A stretch of 23,316 nucleotides of DNA, taken from the IMG/VR virus record IMGVR_UViG_3300035232_000751, positions 1-23,316 of that record; one strand, written 5' to 3'. The translations under genes and the position numbers were made by a program. The notes beneath the pieces are model-generated. The model was not told where the DNA came from. It did no database searches and saw only the letters and a list, made by a program, of their open reading frames with translations. Positions 12,253-20,852 of the stretch are shown here, piece by piece. Position 1 is the stretch's first letter. The number at the start of each line of letters is the position of its first letter. Source of the DNA: a virus.

Positions 12253-12454
12253 TTTCGTCTTCTATGTCTTTCTCTCTAGTTAAGTTTAACTCGTAGTCTA
12301 ACTCTTCTTTTTGAACTACAAGTTTAAATGTTGCCTCTGGATTTCTATCTACATTACAATTTTCTCCAAAATACCCGTAGATAAATGCCTGAACTATCTC
12401 AGGACTGTCAGATTTAACAGTGACCTCAACTATATGAGAATCTTTGTTTGCCAT
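12239..12454 (-). CDS. Small acidic unknown protein (71 aa)
   Basis: A 71-aa protein with a short beta-rich start (HIVEVTVKSDSPEIVQAFIYGY) and a strongly acidic end (EKDIEDESEFI). There are no recognisable domains. Its ATG lies exactly on the stop of the GroES-like gene (1-nt overlap) and its 3' end overlaps the next gene by 14 nt, so it is translated as part of the same late transcript. The function is not known. Confidence 0.65.
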   Translation of the reverse strand: MANKDSHIVEVTVKSDSPEIVQAFIYGYFGENCNVDRNPEATFKLVVQKEELDYELNLTREKDIEDESEFI

Positions 12455-12744
12455 TACTCTACTATTTTAGCAAATAAACTATATTCTTTAAATACGTGAT
12501 ATACAATATTTTTATATACAGTTGGTTGACTCCCGTGTGGAGGTAATAGAACATGATCGCCTGCTTCAAAGTTTTTGACAGCTGGTCCTACACTTACTAT
12601 TTCTCCGTAAAGCTCTGAATGTTCTCTAGCTACTTCTTCAGAAACTATAATTCCTGATTTAGTTTCTTTTGAAGGTGGTTCTACGTAAACTAGGATGTTA
12701 TCATCTACTAGTTTAATATGATTCTCTGTTTCGTTTCTTTTCAT
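12454..12744 (-). CDS. groES: GroES-like co-chaperonin (Cpn10)
   Basis: A 96-aa protein matching the Cpn10 fold throughout: an N-terminal strand LVDDNILVYVEPP, then the region of the GroEL-binding mobile loop (SKETKSGIIVSEEVAREHSE, residues 25-44) with the hydrophobic tripeptide IIV in the right place. This is followed by YGEIVSVGPAVKNFEAGDHVLLPP (residues 46-69), the barrel core with the conserved G-x-V-x-x-V-G-P and GD-x-V-L motifs, and a C-terminal strand SLFAKIVE. GroES caps the host GroEL chamber. Phage versions (T4 gp31 is the known example) adapt it for folding of capsid protein. Its place in the structural operon agrees with that use here. Length is normal and no key element is missing. 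Confidence 0.9.
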   Translation of the reverse strand: MKRNETENHIKLVDDNILVYVEPPSKETKSGIIVSEEVAREHSELYGEIVSVGPAVKNFEAGDHVLLPPHGSQPTVYKNIVYHVFKEYSLFAKIVE

Positions 12745-17399: not shown

Positions 17400-18060
17400 C
17401 GAACTCTACAGTTGTAGATTTTATTTATTACTATTAGGGCTTAGCCTGATAACCATAGTAATATGGCTAAAGACTGTTACTGTCTACATAAAACGGTAAT
17501 GGTTGCTCTCGCAAGAGAGTCAATCTAAGCAAGCAGGATACTACACGGCACCAATGGACAAATGTCTGAGGGTAAGTGTATCTTCTTTTAGTTAGGAAGA
17601 TGAGCTAGTGATAGCAATAGGAAATAACTGTAGATTTAATTCTGAATTAACTGTCGAGTTAACAAAGAGTATAAGTCAGTATGATGGGCAATCTTAGGGA
17701 ATAAGATATAACCTGAAATACCATAACGATGAAAAGTTATACCTGGGATGTATTGTATTTTGTCTTTCAAAAGAAGACAAAGCAATTGTGGACCAACCAC
17801 ATCCTGGACAATTTATGATATAACAATAACTAAAAAGAACAAGTGTTGGCCTGTTACTACCGAAAGGTGACTAAATCTCCCCGAATAACTCGAGGGAGAG
17901 TGGATGATTTCTCAAAATGATTCTGTTTGCGAGTAAAAGACTGATATAGAGTTTAGCGGCTTTATATTACGTTTGAGTAACTCGTGAGTAAGTAGTAACA
18001 TTAGAAGTGGTTAGTCTAACTAACCGTCACTGCACATTACTATTGGAGACAATAGTGGAT
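17400..18060 (+). ncRNA. Large structured non-coding RNA candidate
   Basis: About 660 nt without a convincing gene but dense in RNA structure. Hairpins with GNRA tetraloops are 17503-17523 (GCAA, with a bulged U), 17604-17615 (GTGA), 17858-17869 (GAAA) and 18039-18056 (GAGA, perfect 7 bp). Other hairpins are 17405-17418, 17580-17601, 17647-17662, 17691-17707, 17876-17899 (9 bp, bulged A) and 18009-18025. A three-way junction spans 17746-17804: GGAT/ATCC closes ATTG/CAAT, which continues to TTTGTC/GACAAA, plus GTGG/CCAC. TTAGCC (17441-17446) can pair with GGCTAA (17465-17470). Repeated GNRA caps are typical of large folded RNAs with tertiary contacts. The size and phage context recall the GOLLD and ROOL classes, but I cannot match it to either. 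I saw no group I or group II intron core. Confidence 0.6.
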
Positions 18061-18135
18061 ACGTTGTAAACTGGACAGAATTAAACAACAAAAGATGTGT
18101 GTATAATGGTGTAATCTCAGCCCATTATATTTTAA

Positions 18136-19058: not shown

Positions 19059-19457
19059 ATGGCTACAGATTTAGATAAGAAACACCAGCAGTTATTAGAT
19101 CAGCTTAACAGGCTCGATGACAAAATAGCCTTAAAGGGTTATATTATGCAGCTAGCAGCTGCAGCAGAGGATGCATTAAAGTATCCAGACGCTAAAGTAT
19201 ATTGTAAACTACATGTATATGTAGAGCGTGAAAACGATACAGATGTATCTGCTAAAACTCAAATAGACAATATAATGGGCTCAGACTCTCCTGAAGAAAT
19301 GATGAAGATGCTAAAAGAAATAGCAGATGGGAAATCATCAAAGAAAGAAGAAGAGTTAGACCCTATTGTACACGATATTAAACTAGAAATGCTCAGCAAT
19401 GTAGAATTTCTAGCTGTAATGGATTCAATTATTAATAAACTAAAAACAAAACTATGA
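19059..19457 (+). CDS. Unknown helical protein (132 aa)
   Basis: A 132-aa protein that starts with a predicted coiled coil (KKHQQLLDQLNRLDDKIALK), then has an alpha/beta middle (YCKLHVYVERENDTDVSAK) and an acidic/lysine-rich linker (KEIADGKSSKKEEELD). It overlaps the next gene by 4 nt (ATGA), so the two products are probably made together. No family is recognised. Confidence 0.7.
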   Translation: MATDLDKKHQQLLDQLNRLDDKIALKGYIMQLAAAAEDALKYPDAKVYCKLHVYVERENDTDVSAKTQIDNIMGSDSPEEMMKMLKEIADGKSSKKEEELDPIVHDIKLEMLSNVEFLAVMDSIINKLKTKL

Positions 19458-19825
19458 TCACACTATTTAAAAATCTATGGAAATTCGTAACAGGTACTAA
19501 AGGACCTAATTATGTAGAAGCAGTACCTGCTATTACTATTATGCGCGAACAGCAGCTTGCTGAGTATAAAGCATTACACAGGAAAGAAGTACACTCTAGG
19601 CTTAATAGTAGAGGAAAGACAACACTAAATAGATACCCTGAGTTAGAGTATAATCATTTAGTATTTATGACAGTACCTGGATTTAAAGAGCTAGATGGAT
19701 GTGGTCAAAAGACTGCAGAACATCTATATGGCACTATCCAAGATTATTTACGTGGCTTTGATCATGATATGTCTTATTTAGAAGACATAAACAAAGGGGA
19801 TGACTTGGATTTTGACAGATTGTAG
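19454..19825 (+). CDS. Helix-hairpin-helix protein, 3' end shared with tmRNA (123 aa)
   Basis: A 123-aa protein. Residues about 73-97 (TVPGFKELDGCGQKTAEHLYGT) fit a helix-hairpin-helix motif, the PG-x-G-x-KTA type that grips the DNA backbone in ligases, polymerases and repair nucleases. The rest is basic in the N-terminal half and acidic at the end. There is no nuclease motif, so it is probably a DNA-binding accessory in replication or repair. It is coupled to the preceding gene by an ATGA overlap. The last nine codons and the stop (19796-19825) are also the first 30 nt of the tmRNA. Maturation of the tmRNA 5' end would therefore cut this mRNA inside its coding region. Confidence 0.7.
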   Translation: MITLFKNLWKFVTGTKGPNYVEAVPAITIMREQQLAEYKALHRKEVHSRLNSRGKTTLNRYPELEYNHLVFMTVPGFKELDGCGQKTAEHLYGTIQDYLRGFDHDMSYLEDINKGDDLDFDRL

Positions 19826-20204
19826 AAGACTGTACGGCAAGCAACGATGCTTTTTAACTGGCGAAAATAGTTATTCTGTGGTGAAGCTTACTCCGATAGG
19901 AGTTGAGTCTCACTCTAGTGCTCTACCACTACAAAGTGTAGAACTTGCAGTAGCTGCCTAGGTAGTTATTTCAAAAGTGTTTTTATTATGCTGAATTGTC
20001 ACTTAATACAATAGTCTACAGGTTAATAGCCTTATGAACCAGGTGAAGCGGTAACTTCTAAGGGCATATAAAAGATGGAAGTGCGTAAGTAATGCATCAA
20101 GCCCCTTGTCTCGGATGAGGGAATTAAATCCAATTACTTAAAAGCTTGTATATCTGTACTTTAACAACCAATCATGGACGGGGGTTCGACTCCCCCCATC
20201 TCCA
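19796..20204 (+). ncRNA. ssrA: tmRNA (transfer-messenger RNA)
   Basis: tmRNA rescues ribosomes stalled on broken mRNAs and tags the product for proteolysis. The 5' end GGGGATGACTTGGATTTTGA matches the universal tmRNA start (GGGGnTGAnnnTGGnTTCGAC). The 3' end GGACGGGGGTTCGACTCCCC, continuing CCATCTCCA, matches the universal tmRNA end. The acceptor stem is complete: GGGGATG (19796-19802) with CATCTCC (20197-20203), 7 bp with one G-U at the same place as in E. coli; the discriminator is A20204. The T-arm has five G-C pairs (20180-20184 with 20192-20196) and loop TTCGACT. Helix P2 is seen as GATTG/CAATC, GTAC/GTAC and GCAAGC/GCTTGT (19818-19842 with 20144-20173). The next bases are CTA, so CCA is not encoded, as is usual in Bacteroidota. 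A 33-codon tag frame lies between. The length of 409 nt is normal. The overlap with the upstream gene is unusual. Confidence 0.92.
19860..19961 (+). other. tmRNA tag-peptide reading frame (33 codons)
   Basis: The resume codon is taken as GGC at 19860, because the frame then reads GENSYSVV, like the GENNY/GETNY start of Bacteroidota tags. It stays open for 33 codons and ends SVELAVAA before TAG at 19959-19961. A C-terminal LAVAA resembles the ALAA degron read by ClpXP. Usual Bacteroidota tags are about 9 residues, so this one appears to carry an insertion of about 24 between the conserved ends. Confidence 0.75.
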
Positions 20205-20212
20205 CTAAAGTA

Positions 20213-20318
20213 GAGAGGTGAGTATACAGCAGTTAAATCCTATGCCAAGGGTTGCTGCACATAGATAGCATGCTAAAGAGGGTTTTCCTCGCTATCGGTC
20301 TGATTCCGCTCACCTCTC
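20213..20318 (+). ncRNA. Structured RNA element downstream of tmRNA
   Basis: A 106-nt element closed by a perfect 10-bp stem: GAGAGGTGAG (20213-20222) with CTCACCTCTC (20309-20318). Inside are CAGC/GCTG with an inner AATCC/GGGTT; then GATAGC and GCTATC enclosing GAGG-GTTTT-CCTC; and CGG-TCTGATT-CCG just before the closing stem, like a T-arm. The layout resembles a tRNA cloverleaf, but it lacks the TTC loop signature and is too long, so it could be a degenerate tRNA or an unrelated RNA. It starts 8 nt after the tmRNA and is probably co-transcribed. Confidence 0.5.
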
Positions 20319-20351
20319 AAACTTTTTAACACTAACTTTAAAACTAATTAT

Positions 20352-20852
20352 ATGGGAATGGACTTATATGGAAAGGCACCACAAACGCCTAAACAGAATG
20401 TAAAAGAAATAAATAGCATTCGTAAAAAGATTCAACAAGTTATAACTGATCCTGAGATGGACACTGTTGATAAGCATACAACAAAATGGGCGCATGAAGA
20501 ACGCATAGAACAACTATCACCTGGTATATATTTTAGAAATAACATATGGTGGTGGCGCCCTTTATGGATGTATGTATCTGATATTTGTAAAGATATAGTA
20601 ACAGAGAAAGATATGACCTCAGGTACATTTAATGATGGTCATTTTATATCTAAAACTAAATCTAAAAGAATAGCTAAAAGAATACAAGAAGAAGCAGACT
20701 CAGGACGTCTTGATTTGTACTGTACTTCTTATAATTTAGAACAAAAAGAACTACCTGAGGATGACTGGAGAAATGGTTATCCTTTTAGTGTAGAGAATGC
20801 TCTAAAATTTGCAACCTTTGCAGACCACTCAGGTGGCTTTGCAATTTACTAA
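20352..20852 (+). CDS. Conserved phage hypothetical protein (166 aa)
   Basis: A 166-aa protein beginning MGMDLYGKAPQTPKQN. It contains GIYFRNNIWWWRPLWMYV (about residues 58-75) and FNDGHFISKTKSKRIAKRI. The MG-x-D-x-YG start and FRNN-x-WWWRPLW block are a combination I recall from a widespread phage protein family of unknown function, in which the tryptophan-rich core and NDG motif are conserved. It is soluble, with no transmembrane helix. It is the first gene of the compact second half of the early arm, 33 nt after the structured element. Confidence 0.8.
   Translation: MGMDLYGKAPQTPKQNVKEINSIRKKIQQVITDPEMDTVDKHTTKWAHEERIEQLSPGIYFRNNIWWWRPLWMYVSDICKDIVTEKDMTSGTFNDGHFISKTKSKRIAKRIQEEADSGRLDLYCTSYNLEQKELPEDDWRNGYPFSVENALKFATFADHSGGFAIY

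Follow-up and report, generated by a model that had tools for sequence, protein, structure and literature searches.

A one-piece tmRNA gene with a probable extended tag frame in a phage, and tRNA-like-domain-only RNAs in its relatives

The tmRNA gene and its surroundings

A search of the phage collection returned no close DNA match to the window analyzed here, the whole 23,316-base stretch of a virus record. Because its terminase and portal group with those of crAss-like and Flavobacterium phages, a host in the Bacteroidota is likely; the virus itself is crAss-like. Analysis with ARAGORN identified a one-piece tmRNA at 19796-20205 on the + strand, and the Rfam covariance model RF00023 matched the same region end to end (19796-20207, model positions 1-374; 70.8 bits, E 5.8e-26; gathering score 47 bits). 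The features of the locus are listed in Table 1.

Table 1. Coordinates of the tmRNA, its parts and neighboring elements in the window
Feature	Position	Strand	Evidence
GOLLD RNA, conserved 3' part	17743..18123	+	Rfam RF02032, 221 bits, E 1e-61
Upstream 123-aa gene, last 9 codons and stop inside the tmRNA	19454..19825	+	30-nt overlap
tmRNA gene	19796..20204	+	ARAGORN, Rfam RF00023; also in L122 and L123
Acceptor stem, GGGGAUG with CAUCUCC	19796..19802 with 20197-20203	+	Sequence; 7/7 pairs, including G3-U70, in three phages
Outer P2, GAUUG with CAAUC	19818..19822 with 20169-20173	+	Paired changes in three-sequence alignment
Frame-setting sequence UUAACU, A at -4	19854..19859	+	Weight matrix
Predicted tag frame, 33 codons and UAG: GENSYSVVKLTPIGVESHSSALPLQSVELAVAA	19860..19961	+	Phocaeicola homology, weight matrix, three-phage identity
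In-tag hairpin, 17 pairs	19876..19918	+	Consensus fold of three phages
T-arm, GGGGG UUCGACU CCCCC	20180..20196	+	Sequence, RF00023 alignment
Downstream 166-aa gene	20352..20852	+	tblastn

A sequence-only reading of the window had claimed a complete phage tmRNA and had named Infernal and ARAGORN as the check; both searches return the ends that it claimed, 19796-20204. Its structural details also held, including a full 7-bp acceptor stem with the G-U pair, a complete T-arm (T-stem 20180-20184 with 20192-20196, 5/5 pairs), a split P2, and a length of exactly 409 nt for the mature RNA. The discriminator A20204 is followed by an encoded CUA, not CCA, so CCA must be added to the tmRNA. In the RF00023 alignment the tRNA-like domain lacks a D-stem and an anticodon arm and P2 is long, and the features of alanine identity (7-bp acceptor stem, G3-U70 and an A discriminator) are present in the window sequence and the three-phage alignment. 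A permuted, two-piece tmRNA was rejected on the one-piece order; the corresponding model, RF04321, scored just 22.2 bits, under its cut-off.

The same tmRNA is present in two related contigs, L122 and L123. The outer P2 covaries among the three phages, reading GAUUG/CAAUC in the window and CAUUG/CAAUG and CUAUG/CAUGG in the two relatives, and their consensus fold contains 13 pairs changed on both sides. The tag frame including its stop is identical at 98 of 102 positions (96%), the T-arm and acceptor end are 94% invariant, and the pseudoknot region is 49% invariant with compensatory pairs scattered through the PK2-PK4 region; these comparisons rest on three sequences, a number at which tests of synonymous change are powerless. 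This pattern of conservation indicates that the tmRNA is under selection. It is very improbable that the gene is instead a host ssrA copy acquired by chance, an attachment-site remnant or hitchhiker with no phage function. The ssrA gene is a frequent integration site of phages and islands, and the RNA appears Bacteroidota-derived, but the copy is full length rather than a 3' fragment, has compensatory P2 changes, has been retained in three phages despite amino-acid identities of 41-80% among the proteins of flanking genes, and is accompanied by no integrase among the subset of window proteins tested. BLASTN of the tmRNA against phages and plasmids returned little beyond the T-arm and acceptor end, except for a lead to a Phocaeicola tmRNA, and two DNA patterns covering the tag and P2 regions matched just the two known relatives.

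The tmRNA lies in a + strand block facing - strand structural genes, which makes the "phage early region" of the sequence-only reading plausible. The gene directly upstream overlaps the tmRNA by 30 nt in the window, 18 nt in L122 and 30 nt in L123, and its 123-aa product matched nothing in Pfam or PHROG. We hypothesize that RNase P cleavage of a joint transcript would strip this gene of its stop, creating a nonstop mRNA that is itself a tmRNA substrate and possibly a feedback loop. Stop codons lie in several frames of the tmRNA 5' end, and an upstream gene deprived of its own stop would in any case terminate within it. The downstream 166-aa gene is common to tmRNA-bearing phages and to phages that carry the tRNA-like domain (TLD) only, with tblastn identities of 68-73% in L122 and L123 and about 30% in L211, L215, L223 and L228. 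Among 22 related records GOLLD recurs in 8, and two additional TLD-bearing contigs carry it as well. GOLLD reportedly binds ribosomes in pull-down assays (PMC12286853), so the tmRNA/GOLLD region may be devoted to control of host ribosomes. No Bacteroidetes-type promoter (TTTG..TAnnTTTG) was found within the window, and sigma-70-like promoter matches there were at chance level. Two further observations were made in the window. Directly 3' of the tmRNA, a strongly folding element at 20207-20325 (-44 kcal/mol, z -4.6) is closed by the stem GAGAGGUGAG/CUCACCUCUC; it is missing from the two relatives and has no Rfam match. A GroES-like co-chaperonin is encoded at 12454-12744 on the - strand (Pfam Cpn10, E 1.6e-9).

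Resume codon, tag frame and PK1

The sequence-only reading had also noted an open tag frame. The frame exists on the + strand; the tag start called by ARAGORN, at 19902 with 19 residues, is probably wrong, and GGC 19860, the most likely resume codon, would give a 33-residue tag. To score candidate sites, we used a resume-site weight matrix built from 39 other tmRNAs. UUAACU-GGC (19860) scored 8.42 bits, the top of 125 positions and within the range of known tmRNAs, and scores as high as this occur at 0.06% of window positions. All 39 sites in the matrix are ARAGORN's own calls, which build that program's idea of a resume site into the matrix; that it even so prefers GGC 19860 favors this codon. 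The site fits the resume pattern of U/C-A at -5 and -4 and T/C at -1 followed by an open frame with a stop, and the RF00023 alignment places GGC at the same point. In the Phocaeicola tmRNA, UUUUAUCU is followed by GGC AAC GAA AAU UAC GCU CUC GCU GCU UAA, with the context UUAUCU-GGC. GGC 19860 is thus preferred because of the weight matrix, the Phocaeicola and Rfam homology, and the position of ARAGORN's codon within a hairpin. This hairpin, 19876-19918, has a folding energy of -18.6 kcal/mol (z -3.2 versus dinucleotide shuffles).

The 19-residue tag, V/AESHSSALPLQSVELAVAA, would start at 19902 and leave a PK1-like structure in 19843-19901; we regard it as unlikely. ARAGORN calls a 19902-type start in all three phages, resumption there would fall at position 104-107, nearer the usual position, and alanine, the commonest first tag residue, is encoded by GCU at this point in the two relatives. 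However, AUAGGA-G scores -2.96 in the window and 2.98 in the relatives versus 8.42 for GGC 19860, A at -1 occurs in none of the 39 other tmRNAs, the start codon would be buried in the 3' strand of the conserved hairpin, and the GENSY match to Bacteroidota tags would be left unexplained. Conservation among the three phages is as high in the 42 nt preceding ARAGORN's start as in the rest of the tag frame, and structure could explain it as well as coding. The tag predicted here also shows that a standard gene caller can misplace a tmRNA's tag.

Read from GGC 19860, the predicted tag is Bacteroidota-like at its start (GENxY) and its end, with about 24 codons inserted between them. The C-terminus reads LAVAA in the window and L123 and LALAA in L122, a hydrophobic, ALAA-like proteolysis end. 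Long tags of 24-31 residues are present in several other phage contigs, and our search of the literature turned up no account of a Bacteroidota tmRNA tag. We rejected translational bypassing of the tag hairpin after seeing no matching take-off and landing codons around a stop.

A PK1 between P2 and the resume codon is usual in tmRNA, though not strictly defining. Here just 17 nt separate P2 from GGC, leaving no room for PK1, and the window tmRNA as predicted is without it. Among the standard-form phage tmRNAs examined with credible calls, none resumes before position 84, whereas the resume codon of the window is at position 65. PK1 can be replaced in Escherichia coli without loss of activity (PMC2481249), which means that losing it is not necessarily fatal; the tag insert may be a structural substitute for PK1 or may change what the tag does.

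Proposed function and TLD-only RNAs in related phages

We consider it likely that the gene specifies a functional, standard-form tmRNA of a crAss-like phage that uses the alanyl-tRNA synthetase, SmpB and proteases of the host, an activity that we infer from the sequence. RNase P would cut the 5' end and CCA would then be added, after which the host alanyl-tRNA synthetase would charge the RNA through G3-U70. Together with host SmpB, the charged tmRNA would enter ribosomes that have stalled on broken mRNAs, a situation expected to be common during infection. Translation would restart at GGC 19860 and append the 33-residue tag, with (A)GENSYSVVKLTPIG...LAVAA as the expected product; the -LAVAA or -LALAA signal would send this product to host proteases and the stalled ribosome would be freed. 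SmpB was not found in 12 related phage records, all partial genomes, so function would depend wholly on the SmpB of the host. The uses suggested in the sequence-only reading (ribosome rescue, supplementing the host system and altered tagging) are compatible with these data.

Examination of sister phages revealed a second form of the RNA. Full-model RF00023 matches of 83 nt were found in two sister phages, comprising the tRNA-like domain and lacking a tag; they lie 300-400 nt upstream of GOLLD. A covariance model, R1, confirmed the TLD-only form in four GOLLD-bearing relatives and scored full tmRNAs weakly; its alignment, A3, has 21 rows, the first of which is a slightly altered form of the L159 sequence with its D-loop one base short, and the covariation count is independent of that row. 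A DNA pattern for the compact form matched 57 viral contigs, 56 after removal of one chance match. Among 11.3 million genome contigs from bacteria and archaea it matched just two, both belonging to metagenome-assembled genomes. The resulting set comprises 42 distinct sequences of 77-83 nt (including L159/L191, L171/L192 and L204-L262). The 3' acceptor strand is outside the search pattern, and the acceptor stem is 7/7 paired, G3-U70 included, in all 42 RNAs; the T-stem is 5/5 in all but one. A 43rd pattern match (L231) has an unpaired acceptor stem and was discarded as chance. P2 is 95% paired in the 39 aligned TLD-only RNAs versus 53% (maximum 63%) with shuffled partners, and all pair types are present.

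R1 also identified the TLD-only form in five isolated Streptomyces phages, LuckySocke (L275), Alone3, pSt2308, BRock and Shaeky (L275-L279). In these genomes the RNAs lie within or beside tRNA arrays and carry no such annotation. ARAGORN did not report the TLD-only RNA in any of the five, BRock having just an overlapping and much longer permuted call. A full tmRNA and a TLD-only RNA were together in none of the records checked, which are fragments.

The TLD-only RNA probably occupies SmpB and in this way blocks host tmRNA. The window tmRNA could itself be mainly a decoy of this kind, its tRNA-like domain titrating host SmpB or blocking ribosome entry and its tag domain vestigial. Four sister GOLLD-bearing phages have the tRNA-like domain alone, and the TLD-only form of phage DS6A inhibits tmRNA in E. 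coli (PMC4131195, PMC11915505); we nevertheless judge a decoy role improbable for the window RNA, in which conservation outside the tRNA-like domain is highest in the tag frame with its resume context and stop, unexpected if they were vestigial. With the window RNA read as a tagging tmRNA, one scaffold may serve two opposite uses, a proposal we hold at somewhat less than even confidence. Some phages would supply a full, extended-tag tmRNA, and many, the sister phages included, would carry a widespread, largely unannotated family of 77-83 nt TLD-only RNAs, alanine-charged, that block or bypass tagging through SmpB or stalled ribosomes.

Trans-translation is usually seen as a housekeeping pathway of the host. 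A clade that retains the full tmRNA and its 33-residue tag, or else the tRNA-like core alone, points to a contest over ribosome rescue during infection, with phages both supplying and blocking trans-translation. The 42 TLD-only sequences turn the DS6A oddity into a testable family with copies in Streptomyces phages that were isolated on laboratory hosts; this is the more surprising result, and it lies outside the window.

Comparison with known systems

Catalogues of phage tmRNAs have existed for years (PMC4131195, PMC9004378). About 2% of phages carry one, a 2022 survey having counted them in 402 of 18,146 phage genomes (PMC9004378), in line with the sequence-only reading, which had called them uncommon. 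What is new here is a one-piece variant without PK1 and with a 33-residue tag, and the novelty is modest.

Compared with the tmRNA of Phocaeicola massiliensis (OY725991.1, tag GNENYALAA), the window RNA has in common the acceptor stem (G3-U70 in the window RNA), D-loop, T-arm and P2, the context UUUUA-NCU before GGC, a tag that starts G..EN.Y and ends A(L/V)AA, and a UAG/UAA stop. In contrast, the resume codon is at position 65 in the window and 96 in Phocaeicola, the window lacks room for PK1, the tag has 33 residues versus 9 owing to the hairpin-forming insert, and the remaining pseudoknot domain cannot be aligned. The Phocaeicola tmRNA, complete and one-piece, lies on an 81.8-kb circular record labeled as a plasmid ("plasmid 17"), which may be a misassigned chromosome or a phage-plasmid.

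The tmRNAs of mycobacteriophages Bxz1 and Wildcat, Bacillus phage G, Streptomyces phages and OM43 phage Melnitz are, like that of the window, complete and borne by tailed phages. The window differs from them in host phylum, in the nearby GOLLD and in the overlap with an upstream gene. The Melnitz tmRNA is a permuted two-piece RNA under a glutamine riboswitch, whereas the window tmRNA is one-piece. As a separate observation, a tmRNA-like match in Tunturiibacter phage Tunturi_4 (PP885687.1, about 43,300-44,500), called as a permuted tmRNA by ARAGORN, adjoins a gene annotated as an RF-1 domain peptide chain release factor; the two are a possible phage ribosome-rescue cluster.

The TLD-only RNA of Mycobacterium phage DS6A is a tmRNA inhibitor in E. 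coli and the sole phage precedent named in the reports describing it (PMC4131195, PMC11915505). From its published description it has the same tRNA-like core as the window RNA, which in contrast keeps a conserved tag frame. The four sister phages of the window match the DS6A-type TLD-only form, and GOLLD (RF02032) is a separate RNA found in the window and in its tmRNA- and TLD-bearing relatives.
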